A DNA stretch of 64,000 bases from Hanstruepera ponticola (GTDB lineage: Bacteria; Bacteroidota; Bacteroidia; Flavobacteriales; Flavobacteriaceae): NCBI RefSeq assembly GCF_012931685.1, contig NZ_JABANC010000001.1, forward strand, positions 558,001 through 622,000, read 5' to 3'. A program made the translations under genes and the position numbers. The notes below the pieces were generated by a model. The model was given only the letters and a program-made list of their open reading frames with translations, made no database searches and had not been told where the DNA came from. Below, piece by piece: positions 49,258 to 53,538 of the stretch (position 1 is the first letter of the stretch; each line of letters starts with the position of its first letter).

Positions 49258-49286
49258 AAAAGCGTCCTGTTTTGCAGGACGCTTTT
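49258..49286 (-). terminator. Terminator of the ECF-controlled mini transcription unit
   Basis: AAAAGCGTCCTG pairs perfectly with CAGGACGCTTTT across a five-base loop, with a run of seven Ts on the minus strand. It lies 61 bases past the stop of the 30-codon gene and upstream of trhO. Confidence 0.92.
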
Positions 49287-49346
49287 AGTAGACTAACTCG
49301 TTATTAATATTTTTTCATTCTTCTAAATCAAAAAATACAATAAGAG

Positions 49347-49439
49347 CTAACCTCCATCGGCTTTACAGCTGCTGTTTATAAATACAACAACTGAAACGCC
49401 TAATACGTTGTTAATTAAAGTTTTCTTAATAAATTTCAT
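49347..49439 (-). CDS. 30-residue lipoprotein-like small peptide
   Basis: A short reading frame of 30 codons starts MKFIKKTLINNVLGVSVVVF and continues with a lipobox-like 'INSSC' (Cys 25), then five polar residues 'KADGG' and TAG. I checked the codons one by one. It has a positive N-terminus, a hydrophobic stretch and a cysteine, so it could be lipidated with almost nothing after the lipid. Its general shape is like the 'smalltalk' small proteins of Bacteroides, but I cannot show homology. It is the only frame between a strong candidate ECF promoter (49531-49561) and a strong terminator. The unit might instead act as an sRNA. Confidence 0.55.
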   Translation of the reverse strand: MKFIKKTLINNVLGVSVVVFINSSCKADGG

Positions 49440-49530
49440 CTGTACAATTTTTAAATTCTTAAAAAGGACAAACAAAATTAATCGCATAAAATACGATTGA
49501 TTTCATAGCAAAAGTTCCCCACTTTATATA

Positions 49531-49561
49531 GTAGATGCAAAAAGTGTAAAAAGGTTGCGTC
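49531..49561 (-). promoter_or_regulatory. Candidate ECF-sigma promoter, left copy (inverted 31-bp repeat)
   Basis: On the minus strand this has GCAACC (AAC at 49556-49554), 16 bases, then CATCTAC (49537-49531). It matches the right copy at 50671-50701 in 30 of 31 positions. It points left, into the 30-residue peptide unit. The AAC-N16-C geometry is that of ECF promoters such as SigW. Confidence 0.75.
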
Positions 49562-49567
49562 AGAATA

Positions 49568-49597
49568 TTGAAAAAATTAAAACTTATCGTAATTTAG
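49568..49597 (+). promoter_or_regulatory. Probable recA promoter
   Basis: TTG (49568-49570), a 19-base spacer and TAATTTAG (one mismatch to TAnnTTTG) lie 30 bases before the recA ATG. No LexA-type box is seen. Confidence 0.5.
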
Positions 49598-50632: not shown

Positions 50633-50668
50633 AAAAAATCCCGAAAATTTCGGGATTTTTTTTGCTTT
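50632..50668 (+). terminator. Terminator of recA
   Basis: ATCCCGAAA pairs with TTTCGGGAT, flanked by an A-run before and a T8 run after, starting at the recA stop codon. The right ECF-type promoter starts two bases downstream. Confidence 0.9.
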
Positions 50669-50670
50669 TA

Positions 50671-50701
50671 GACGCAACCTTTTTACACTTTCTGCATCTA
50701 C
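50671..50701 (+). promoter_or_regulatory. Candidate ECF-sigma promoter, right copy (31-bp repeat)
   Basis: GCAACC (AAC at 50676-50678), 16 bases, CATCTAC (50695-50701). It lies 35 bases upstream of the lipoprotein ATG and reads into the lipoprotein-sigma-anti-sigma operon, consistent with autoregulation. It is the inverted near-copy of 49531-49561; the single mismatch is in the spacer. Confidence 0.78.
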
Positions 50702-50736: not shown

Positions 50737-51144
50737 ATGAAAAAATTAACTGTTTGTTTGTTATTTATACTGGCATTATCATGTAGTACAGATGATGGAT
50801 TGGATCCAGTTTCTTTTGTAATTTTACCTGTAGAAAATGCAGTAGTCCCTACAGAGTTTGAACGTAATGAAACCTATGATATTTATCTGGAGTATTTACG
50901 ACCTACTTCTTGTCACGGTTTTAACGACATTTATTTTACAAGTGAATCAAACGAAAGAACGGTTGCGGTAATTGCCACATATTTTCAAGGGAATAATAAT
51001 TGCACTGAAATAGATGCTCTAACTGAAGCCTCTTTTAGATTTAAAGCCACCACAGAAGATTTATATATTTTCAAATTTTGGCAAGGTAAAGATGAAAACG
51101 GTGAAGATCAATATATGATTGTTGAAGTGCCTGTTGTAGATTAA
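50737..51144 (+). CDS. Small lipoprotein of the ECF-sigma operon
   Basis: This 135-residue protein has the lipoprotein signal MKKLTVCLLFILALSCS with lipobox 'LALSC' (Cys 16). The mature part is beta-rich ('VSFVILPVENAVVPTEF', 'NERTVAVIATYFQGNNNCTEIDAL', 'FRFKATTEDLYIFKFWQGKDENG') and has two further cysteines. The ATG at 50737 is chosen because a longer frame would run back through the promoter. It is the first gene of the operon, 28 bases before the sigma gene, and so may sense envelope stress or modulate the barrel protein. No family is recognised. Confidence 0.75.
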   Translation: MKKLTVCLLFILALSCSTDDGLDPVSFVILPVENAVVPTEFERNETYDIYLEYLRPTSCHGFNDIYFTSESNERTVAVIATYFQGNNNCTEIDALTEASFRFKATTEDLYIFKFWQGKDENGEDQYMIVEVPVVD

Positions 51145-51172: not shown

Positions 51173-51715
51173 GTGAGTTTAAAACAACTCATCATAAATT
51201 GTAGTAAAAATGATACTAAAGCACAAAGTGAACTATATCAACTCTTTTCGAGTAAATTGTTTTCGGTTTGCTTAAAGTATTCAAGAAACTATGTTGAAGC
51301 AGAAGATAATCTGCAAGACGCTTTTTTGACCATTTTTGAAAAAATAGGTCAATATAATAATAAAGGTTCTTTTGAAGGTTGGTTAAAACGGATTACTATT
51401 AACACTGCATTGCAGCGTTATAGAGGTCAAGGTGTTTTTGAAATAGTTAATGAAGAATTAATAGAAGATGACGAATTAGACATTGAAGATGATGAATTGA
51501 CTGTTGAATTTCTATTAGGAATTATTCAAGAACTTCCAGATAGATATAGATTGGTTTTCAATTTATACGCACTTGACGGTTATTCTCATAATGAAATAGC
51601 CGAATTGTTATCAATTACCTCAGGTACCTCTAAATCTAATTTGGCAAGAGCTCGAAGGTTATTAGTTGAAAAAATAGAAGCATATAAAGCGAGTTTAAAT
51701 TCGCAATCATTATAA
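51173..51715 (+). CDS. ECF-type RNA polymerase sigma-70 factor
   Basis: This 180-residue sigma factor has region 2 ('AQSELYQLFSSKLFSVCLKYSRN', 'AEDNLQDAFLTIFEKI', 'SFEGWLKRITINTALQRYR') and region 4 ('IIQELPDRYRLVFNLYALDGYSHNEIAELLSITSGTSKSNLARARRLL', a helix-turn-helix), with an acidic linker. The start is GTG (51173); the ATG two bases before it gives an immediate stop in its frame. It is followed after two bases by a protein with an anti-sigma-like head. It most likely recognises the promoter of its own operon. Confidence 0.93.
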   Translation: MSLKQLIINCSKNDTKAQSELYQLFSSKLFSVCLKYSRNYVEAEDNLQDAFLTIFEKIGQYNNKGSFEGWLKRITINTALQRYRGQGVFEIVNEELIEDDELDIEDDELTVEFLLGIIQELPDRYRLVFNLYALDGYSHNEIAELLSITSGTSKSNLARARRLLVEKIEAYKASLNSQSL

Positions 51716-51717
51716 CA

Positions 51718-53538
51718 ATGAGTGATAAAAAACATATAGACAGAATTTTTCAAGAGAAACTCAAGGATTTTGAGGTGTCTCCAAATCCTGAACTTTGGGG
51801 GAAAATTCAGAATGAATTAAATCTTGAAAAAGAAGAACCAAAAAAAGTAATTCCTATTTGGATGCGTATAGCAAGTATTGCTGCGCTTTTGGCCATATTA
51901 ATTACTATTGGAAGTTTTGTGTTTGATGGTGGGTCCAATAACCTAACTCCCGATTCAAATACTGTTGATACTAATGCGGATAGTAATAATCCTATTATTG
52001 ATGAATTGGATAATAATCCGTTAAATAATAATACTGAAAACAAAGTCGCCAATGATGATCAGATTAATGAACCTAACAACGCATCATTAGAAAATACAAG
52101 TGAACAAGGTAGTTCTCATGTTGTTTTATCCGAAACTGAGAATAAGCCAAAGTCACAAAGCGAAATGGTTTCTTCACCATCAAACTTTAGTTCAAATAAT
52201 AATGATATTGCTGAATCAAATAAGTCTGAAAAAGAACCGTCTGATTATAACAATATCGAAAAACAAAACTTATCTAATTCCAAATCATCAAGGTTAAACA
52301 AAGATAATTTCACTAATAGTATTGAATCTAGTGTTGCTCAAACTGATACATCAAATTCGGATAAGCTAGATGATAATTCAAACGGAATGGATAACAAAAA
52401 TGATTCTTCAAGCAAAGAATCTTCAAACAAAAAGTCCAAATTATCCAATTCGCTTATTAACACTGAAAGCCAAGCAACTCAAGTTACTGATAATTTGAAT
52501 AATAATGCCTCCAAATCTACCGATAAACCATTACATAAAAATAATGTTTCTTCAAACACAAGTGTAGCTAATTCAACAGTTTCACCATCTAATTCCAATG
52601 CTGAAATAGACAAACAAGCGGTTGATAATGCACTAGGTATTGAAAAAACTCAAGAAGCTGTCGCACTCAATGCTATGAAAGGCGACACACCTCATAATGA
52701 AAAAGAAAAAGAGGTAAATCAAAAAGTTGGTGATTCGCTTGCAACTAGCGAATCGCCTTCTATTGAGGAAGAAATTGCTCAAGCAGAAAACATTAATGAA
52801 AAAGAAGAAGAAGAAGAAAAACTAGTAAACAGGTGGCAAGTTGCAGCTAGTGTTGCCCCTGTTTACTATAATTCGCTTGGTAATGGATCGCATATTGATG
52901 ATCAATTTGTTTCCAATTCAAAAAGTGGTGAGGTAAACATGAGTTATGGTGTAAATGTTAGCTATGCCTTAAGTAAAAAACTTTCTGTGAGATCTGGAGT
53001 AAATTCTCTTAACTTAAGTTATGATACAGACAATGTTATTTTATATGAAACACCTAGTGGGAATAATGGCACGCCTATAAACCCTTTAAGGAACATCAAT
53101 TTAGCACCTCAGAGTCAATCCCTAAATGCGTTTAGCGCTGATAATCTTGGTGTTCAACAAATTAATGACGTATTATATAATGCTGCCATTAGCCAACGCT
53201 TAAGCTACTATGAAGTACCTGTAGAACTAGAATACAAATTAGTTAATAATCGTTTTGGATTGAATGTTATTGGTGGTGTAAGTACTTTCTTTTTAGATGG
53301 TAATGAAGTCTATTCTGAATTTGAAGAATATAACACATACATAGGTGAAGCCAATAATATAAATAATGTAAGTTTCAGTACCAATTTAGGTATTGGTATT
53401 AATTATAAATTCACAGAATCGTTTAAGTTTAATTTTGAGCCAACCTTTAAATATCAATTAAACGGTTTTGAAAATACATCTGGTAACTTTAGACCTTATA
53501 TCATAGGAGTATATACAGGGTTTAGTTACAAATTTTAG
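51718..53538 (+). CDS. Anti-sigma-like head fused to an outer-membrane beta-barrel
   Basis: This 606-residue protein has four parts. Residues 1-42 are soluble and charged ('IFQEKLKDFEVSPNPELWGKI'). One membrane helix spans about 44-68 ('IPIWMRIASIAALLAILITI'). A linker of about 300 residues is rich in Ser, Asn, Asp, Lys and Glu with almost no hydrophobics. A beta-barrel domain covers about 371-606 ('RWQVAASVAPVYYNS', 'GVNVSYALSKKLSVRSGV', final 'YIIGVYTGFSYKF' ending in Phe). It starts two bases after the sigma gene. The head would hold the sigma factor at the inner membrane while the barrel sits in the outer membrane; this is inference. No zinc anti-sigma HxxxCxxC motif is present. Confidence 0.75.
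   Translation: MSDKKHIDRIFQEKLKDFEVSPNPELWGKIQNELNLEKEEPKKVIPIWMRIASIAALLAILITIGSFVFDGGSNNLTPDSNTVDTNADSNNPIIDELDNNPLNNNTENKVANDDQINEPNNASLENTSEQGSSHVVLSETENKPKSQSEMVSSPSNFSSNNNDIAESNKSEKEPSDYNNIEKQNLSNSKSSRLNKDNFTNSIESSVAQTDTSNSDKLDDNSNGMDNKNDSSSKESSNKKSKLSNSLINTESQATQVTDNLNNNASKSTDKPLHKNNVSSNTSVANSTVSPSNSNAEIDKQAVDNALGIEKTQEAVALNAMKGDTPHNEKEKEVNQKVGDSLATSESPSIEEEIAQAENINEKEEEEEKLVNRWQVAASVAPVYYNSLGNGSHIDDQFVSNSKSGEVNMSYGVNVSYALSKKLSVRSGVNSLNLSYDTDNVILYETPSGNNGTPINPLRNINLAPQSQSLNAFSADNLGVQQINDVLYNAAISQRLSYYEVPVELEYKLVNNRFGLNVIGGVSTFFLDGNEVYSEFEEYNTYIGEANNINNVSFSTNLGIGINYKFTESFKFNFEPTFKYQLNGFENTSGNFRPYIIGVYTGFSYKF

Follow-up and report, generated by a model that had tools for sequence, protein, structure and literature searches.

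A short stretch of DNA between recA and trhO in Hanstruepera ponticola appears to hold a small gene of its own, which we read, tentatively, as encoding a dual-function small RNA (sRNA) controlled by an extracytoplasmic function (ECF) sigma factor; its promoter is of the same type as that of the ECF sigma operon nearby. The window in which it lies is 64,000 nucleotides (nt) of contig NZ_JABANC010000001.1 (positions 558,001 to 622,000). It comes from a Flavobacteriaceae genome, and the closest named loci are those of Hanstruepera species. The reading rests on sequence comparison: on the promoter type, the conservation of a short open reading frame (ORF), the covariation of a hairpin at its stop codon, the terminator belonging to the unit, and relatives in which the unit appears to be non-coding. 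The mini unit is on the minus strand of the recA-trhO gap and is laid out as follows.

49559-49531, minus strand: ECF-type promoter, CGCAACCTTTTTACACTTTTTGCATCTAC, with 0 mismatches to the scanned pattern.
49511..49525, minus strand: possible 5'-terminal hairpin AAAGU-GGGGA-ACUUU, read from the sequence.
49506-49459, minus strand: 15-codon upstream frame MKSIVFYAINFVCPF*, at a conserved GCUAUGAAA element, read from the sequence.
49439-49347, minus strand, stop codon included: ORF of a 30-residue peptide, MKFIKKTLINNVLGVSVVVFINSSCKADGG, with a conserved frame.
49288..49355 (about 49352-49288), minus strand: stop-codon hairpin, in which the last Gly codon, the stop codon and CUC pair with the 3' arm (ACGAG)UUAGUC, from minimum free energy (MFE) folds, z-scores, covariation and a covariance model (CM) match.
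49286-49258, minus strand: intrinsic terminator of 12 pairs (6 GC) with a T-rich tail, from fold prediction.

Counted from a predicted start, the RNA would be about 272 nt long. The promoter, the 30-codon frame and the terminator stand where a first-pass annotation, made from the letters alone, had placed them, and its proposal of a unit of about 270 nt under an ECF-type promoter holds across relatives. Among 100 loci with the long, peptide-encoding form (including one duplicate contig, L137 being the same as L147), a relaxed promoter motif is found in 98 and a terminator-like fold ahead of a T-run in 99. The long hairpin at the stop codon does not appear in that annotation, and its description of the unit as holding only a 30-codon frame was inexact, the 15-codon upstream frame being there too. 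We find no support for the upstream frame as coding. Its content is not conserved, and its start codon is gone in some relatives (ATA in L104 and ACG in L113; in loci without the peptide, ATC in L204, L208 and L231 and ATA in L238). The stems of the possible 5'-terminal hairpin vary among relatives and, by eye, the hairpin is not seen in several divergent lineages. We also noticed by eye a pairing of a GCUAU element with the start of trhO and set it aside, since relatives have other versions of the element (e.g., AACUGUG).

At the DNA level, the unit had matches in 32 of 60 relatives, in many of them as short pieces only. From the first 30 loci, 12 (own genome included) yield the peptide by regular expression, and most of the 18 others had matched as short pieces only. 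L013 and L017 keep the promoter region with the peptide absent; L018 has a divergent copy that the expression missed and that was found later. A hidden Markov model (HMM) of the peptide matched 79 of 397 genomes of the family at E <= 0.01, with several chance matches among the weakest, and a broader model matched 75 of the 397 at E <= 1.7e-5. Reading the locus confirmed three weaker hits (G223, G339 and G145), and a fourth, G158, is not at recA. The 75 strong hits and the three verified weaker ones therefore place the peptide in at least 78 of the 397 Flavobacteriaceae genomes, with one strong match per positive genome. In 296 genomes of the order, a set that included members of the family, no match outside Flavobacteriaceae was better than E 3.4e-4, and such weak matches were not inspected. 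Two sets of loci were used for comparison. The first consists of 79 named loci, several from the same genomes, picked by the pattern [IV]N[SG][NS]CK[AS]DG, which biases them towards an intact C-terminus. The second consists of 27 loci taken from HMM hits instead (L146-L165, L196-L199 and L201-L203), a false hit, L200 from G158, having been dropped.

The peptide is 30 residues long in 82 of the 100 loci, 28 in 14 and 29 in 4; that of L197 has 31, and the start codons of L202 and L203 are not settled. In 406 close pairs drawn from 82 sequences, pairs that are not independent, the ratio of non-synonymous to synonymous differences (pN/pS) is 0.40 for codons 2-12, 0.65 for codons 13-21 and 0.035 for codons 22-30 (pS 0.41), and 0.335 for codons 2-30 together. 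All of the 107 peptides end in GG, and 106 of them in DGG and in [KR]xDGG. The C-terminus is under strong constraint at the protein level, and the ORF shows the conservation looked for in a dual-function sRNA, with translation predicted. A purely non-coding RNA is ruled out for the long form by the pN/pS values together with the length differences, which preserve the frame. Among the 27 loci picked without the C-terminal pattern, the middle of the peptide can turn polar, and F, S or T can stand in place of the Cys. Two rows of the alignments are imperfect: L129 is miscut in A3 and two codons short in A4, and the row of the window lacks its first M in A4. Separately, in 74 of 83 loci the Ala ahead of the conserved Asp is encoded by GCC despite the AT-rich DNA, a preference that may come from a constraint on the RNA or from descent.

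The RNA around the stop codon is also conserved. In 98 of the 100 loci, UUAG[U/C]C is the pairing partner of the last Gly codon and the stop codon, with variants in L120 and L162, and the stem continues with CUCG/CGAG or another version of the pairing. In MFE folds of 97 distinct hairpins, all three bases of the stop codon are paired in 95 and two of them in the other 2; the median z-score is -5.28, and 95 of the 97 fall below -2. In 71 rows fitted to a model, 90.0 % of cells pair (86.8 when shuffled), at most 52 % pair when the partner is slid by one to three columns, and there are 18 double-changed cells vs. 4.6 in shuffles, none of 500 shuffles reaching as high. With 38 rows aligned by MAFFT and no model fitting, the count is 9 vs. 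3.0, again with 0 of 500 as high. Wherever UUAGCC occurs, the last codon is GGC (10 of 10). The hairpin of the window matches the CM at 67.7 bits, its own row having helped to build the model. By these comparisons, the stop-codon hairpin is conserved and covarying. The first-pass annotation had set conservation of the frame against conservation of RNA structure; relatives near recA have both, the low pN/pS at codons 22-30 and the covariation of the hairpin.

Further evidence comes from 41 loci that lack the peptide and have recA in place (L194, L195 and L204-L242; L243 was dropped, having no recA match). Thirty-nine came from 40 regions beside strong matches to Lip, the first gene of the ECF operon described below, in genomes that lacked a good match to the peptide; L194 and L195 were picked for their promoter match. 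The promoter is kept in 39 of the 41 and both promoter and terminator in 38. A strict core, G[AG]NTA[AG]CTC, is found in 18 of the 41 vs. 6 of 820 shuffles. By eye, 20 loci from several genera can be grouped as short forms: they span about 105 nt, have a GCUAU element close to the 5' end and carry GACUAACUC ahead of the terminator; exceptions are L222, which is cut without its 5' part, and L212 and L236, which have variant cores. Per-base identity in these 20 is 0.85-1.00 over the core GACUAACUC and 0.70-0.95 over the 5' block UUUGCUAUGAAAUUU (13 of 15 bases at >=0.85). The core resembles the 5' arm of the long-form hairpin (GGY-UAR-CUCG). Since the start codon is ATC or ATA in four of the short forms, the short form does not look coding. 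About 11 of the peptide-less loci carry broken remnants of the peptide (by eye) and make up a decayed class; the others belong to neither group. At E <= 1, the hairpin model picks up 5 of the 41, every one of them decayed. The conserved promoter and terminator, the covarying hairpin and these non-coding relatives lend support to the idea, raised in the first-pass annotation, that the RNA is an sRNA. As side observations, L225 and L228, from one genus, have a broken peptide frame and keep an altered stop-codon hairpin, and L211 and L215 have a small lipoprotein-like gene in the recA-trhO gap.

A midpoint-rooted tree of RecA and TrhO included 81 of the 106 long loci; the other 25, near-duplicates for the most part, were omitted by hand. 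One basal side is all long (17 of 17 rows), and all short and decayed forms are nested in its sister side. The long form therefore looks older than the short form, a direction that the counts do not prove. By parsimony, the short label requires 9 changes, and starred branches force 3.

The sigma factor presumed to read the unit is encoded on the other side of recA, in an operon of opposite orientation.

50673..50701, plus strand: second copy of the ECF promoter, before the lipoprotein/sigma/anti-sigma operon, with 1 mismatch.
50737..51144, plus strand: Lip, a 135-residue lipoprotein and the first gene of the ECF operon, from the family alignment.
51173..51715, plus strand: ECF sigma factor (Pfam Sigma70_r2 and r4_2; sigma70-ECF TIGR02937).
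51718..53538, plus strand: putative anti-sigma factor with a transmembrane helix, a long linker and a C-terminal beta-rich region, named for its place after the sigma gene.

There are 6 promoter sites within 3 mismatches in the own genome, those of the mini unit and the ECF operon included, and none for a reversed control pattern. The relaxed motif stands before Lip in 75 of the 75 loci where the Lip start could be set (of the 79 named), and in 0 of 1500 shuffles. Because the motif sits before the sigma factor's own operon, we infer that this sigma factor uses it and presume that it is the user of both promoters. With an ECF-type promoter at its 5' end, the mini unit has what is looked for in an ECF-sigma-dependent sRNA, use of the promoter by this sigma factor being predicted. 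The spacer of the L124 promoter is one base shorter.

Several side observations concern these promoters and the operon. An inverted repeat of 47 nt (83 % complementary; 49531-49577 and 50655-50701) flanks recA and holds both ECF promoters. In 9 of 74 named loci, the two promoters agree at all of the 10 spacer bases compared, and the mean number of spacer mismatches is 3.95 within a genome vs. 4.73 between genomes. The four further sites in the own genome (L033, L034, L035 and L036) are upstream of secreted or lipoprotein genes, read from the sequence as those of a secreted repeat protein, a lipoprotein, a long secreted protein and a small lipoprotein; two of these sites directly follow genes read as eno and metK. 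These four make up a candidate regulon. Lip has no Pfam or NCBIfam match, and the putative anti-sigma factor has no Pfam match. The latter has a short N-terminal part, a hydrophobic helix (about 47-69), an Asn/Ser-rich linker and a C-terminus of predicted beta-strands ending in YTGFSYKF. It could link the inner and outer membranes in one chain; its structure model, the sole source of the helix and strands, is of low confidence (mean predicted local distance difference test score (pLDDT) 40.1, predicted template modelling score (pTM) 0.32) and too weak to support a fold search.

Taking these observations together, we propose that the sigma factor would make the RNA under envelope stress and that the RNA would base-pair with targets through its UAACUC core. 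In the long form, the 3' arm of the hairpin would mask the core, and the stop codon lying within the core would couple translation to pairing. The peptide would be a second, lineage-dependent output acting via its C-terminus. What points to base pairing is the covarying hairpin and the non-coding short form. We further propose that translation up to the stop codon would have to open the masked core, so that coding and pairing would compete. In its full form, this would make the RNA a translation-gated riboregulator, with ribosomes at the stop codon switching it between coding and pairing, a built-in antisense arm as the mask, and relatives that have shed ORF and mask together and run a bare sRNA. 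That elaboration is more doubtful than the dual-function reading itself. The choice of A or G in the core (UAA or UAG stops, CUAAC or CUAGC in short forms) fits a U opposite and is only suggestive.

Several points weigh against the dual-function reading. L158 has no recognisable promoter site. The shuffles used for covariation ignore relatedness, and the 71-row alignment was fitted to its own model. In the CM search, which took 80 of the 107 long loci, 9 of the 80 fell below the cut-off, and many of the 80 were also among the 38 rows that built the model. Some long-form lineages have a changed core (e.g., AAACCG, AUUCGAUU) yet keep the hairpin; therefore, it is the structure and not the core sequence that is preserved there. 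The peptide-less loci were not chosen at random, and among the 41 the promoter is absent from 2 and the core from about half. Finally, with only 3 changes forced on the tree, the short forms may come from few events, so their conservation may be partly shared ancestry.

Nearly as likely as the dual-function reading is a plain small-protein gene of the ECF regulon. Here the peptide would be the sole product, with [KR]xDGG binding a partner, while the stop hairpin would stabilise the mRNA or tune termination, and the short and decayed forms would be relics of gene loss. The pN/pS of 0.035 at the last nine codons, the nearly invariant DGG (106 of 107, with GG in 107 of 107), the roughly 11 loci with broken remnants and the all-long side of the tree (17 of 17 rows) are all what this account would lead one to expect. 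Mere relics would not be expected to keep promoter and terminator in 38 of 41 peptide-less loci, or to have in common a non-coding core in about 20 loci of several genera.

An arrest or leader peptide is unlikely. In such a system, nascent KxDGG would slow termination at the structured stop codon, and the stalled ribosome would determine what becomes of the RNA or whether there is read-through into trhO. The peak of conservation adjoins the stop codon, the register of the hairpin relative to the stop is constant in 98 of 100 loci, and Phe_leader is the highest-scoring Rfam family below threshold (28.4 bits vs. a gathering score of 55), all of which would suit it. However, we saw no alternative pairing with the variable terminator, as judged by eye and not systematically computed. 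Past the terminator, trhO has its own TAnnTTTG-like box (by eye; sigma-A consensus as in the part of PMC9723704 consulted). In L083, L100, L121, L131 and L134, there is no TrhO match downstream within 3 kb, and the unit and its terminator remain.

A type I toxin-like small hydrophobic peptide is very improbable: the peptide is short, basic and partly hydrophobic and its mRNA is structured, but the middle segment is polar or alternating in relatives (e.g., L146 and L165), and there is a single strong match per genome. Least credible of all is the suggestion of the first-pass annotation that the product is a lipoprotein cut to a six-residue lipopeptide that signals to an envelope sensor. It arose from the INSSC of the own peptide, which is followed by five residues, and the Cys is indeed kept in 99 of 107 peptides. 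Under a PS51257-type rule, a lipobox stands ahead of an invariant Cys. Only 6 of the 107 peptides pass this rule vs. 64 of 75 control Lip lipoproteins; 101 fail, the own peptide among them, and 8 of the 107 lack the Cys. The third position before the Cys is N in 89 of 107 and the position directly before it in 59. From this failure, the peptide is read as a small protein that is probably cytoplasmic. Nor do the genomes support signalling to the envelope sensor: 260 of the 397 family genomes have Lip, which is thus much commoner than the peptide (about 78), and in L194 and L195 Lip, sigma and anti-sigma genes stand beside a decayed or short unit.

If read correctly, the unit is a probable envelope-stress RNA with a candidate sigma regulon in Bacteroidota, a phylum in which, to our knowledge, few such circuits have been worked out. 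With its long, decayed and short forms all at a single syntenic locus, it lends itself to a natural comparison for studying how a small RNA loses its coding role, or how it gains one. There are 0 Rfam matches in the window, and a relaxed threshold gives only hits below threshold, Phe_leader being the best. The peptide, tested as a 46-residue frame containing it, matches 0 Pfam or NCBIfam families at E 0.001. In the portion of the literature searched, we found no Flavobacteriaceae ECF-regulated sRNA, dual-function RNA or small-protein family with this architecture. The leader-peptide attenuators represented by Phe_leader are alike in having a short peptide, a hairpin at its stop and then a terminator. 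They differ in that the score is far under the cut-off, no antiterminator is seen by eye, and the mini unit is not tied to one downstream gene. MicA, RybB and MicL, the sigma-E-dependent sRNAs of enterobacteria, are likewise small terminated RNA units behind an ECF-type promoter, whereas the mini unit encodes a conserved peptide, belongs to another phylum with another sigma factor, and has no Rfam match. The mini unit resembles SgrS/SgrT and RNAIII/hld, which are dual-function sRNAs, in combining a short ORF with an RNA activity (predicted here) in one small RNA, but it differs in placing the stop codon in a conserved pairing element and in having a natural peptide-free form in relatives. The same likeness and differences apply to SR1/SR1P of Bacillus, a dual-function sRNA as described in the part of PMC8501984 consulted. 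Within the family, the consulted part of PMC9723704 describes the sRNA Rfp18 and the ECF motif SM6 in Flavobacterium psychrophilum, which are alike in being a flavobacterial sRNA and ECF promoters of Flavobacteriaceae; the word recA is absent from the main text consulted. The nearest precedent found in the phylum for a masked pairing region, as far as the part of PMC10861873 consulted describes it, is BatR of Bacteroides thetaiotaomicron, an sRNA that acts on cell-surface genes; its pairing region is hidden in the full-length RNA and becomes accessible in a shorter one. By that description, the short form of BatR is a processing product of one RNA, whereas here the long and short forms are forms of the locus in different species.
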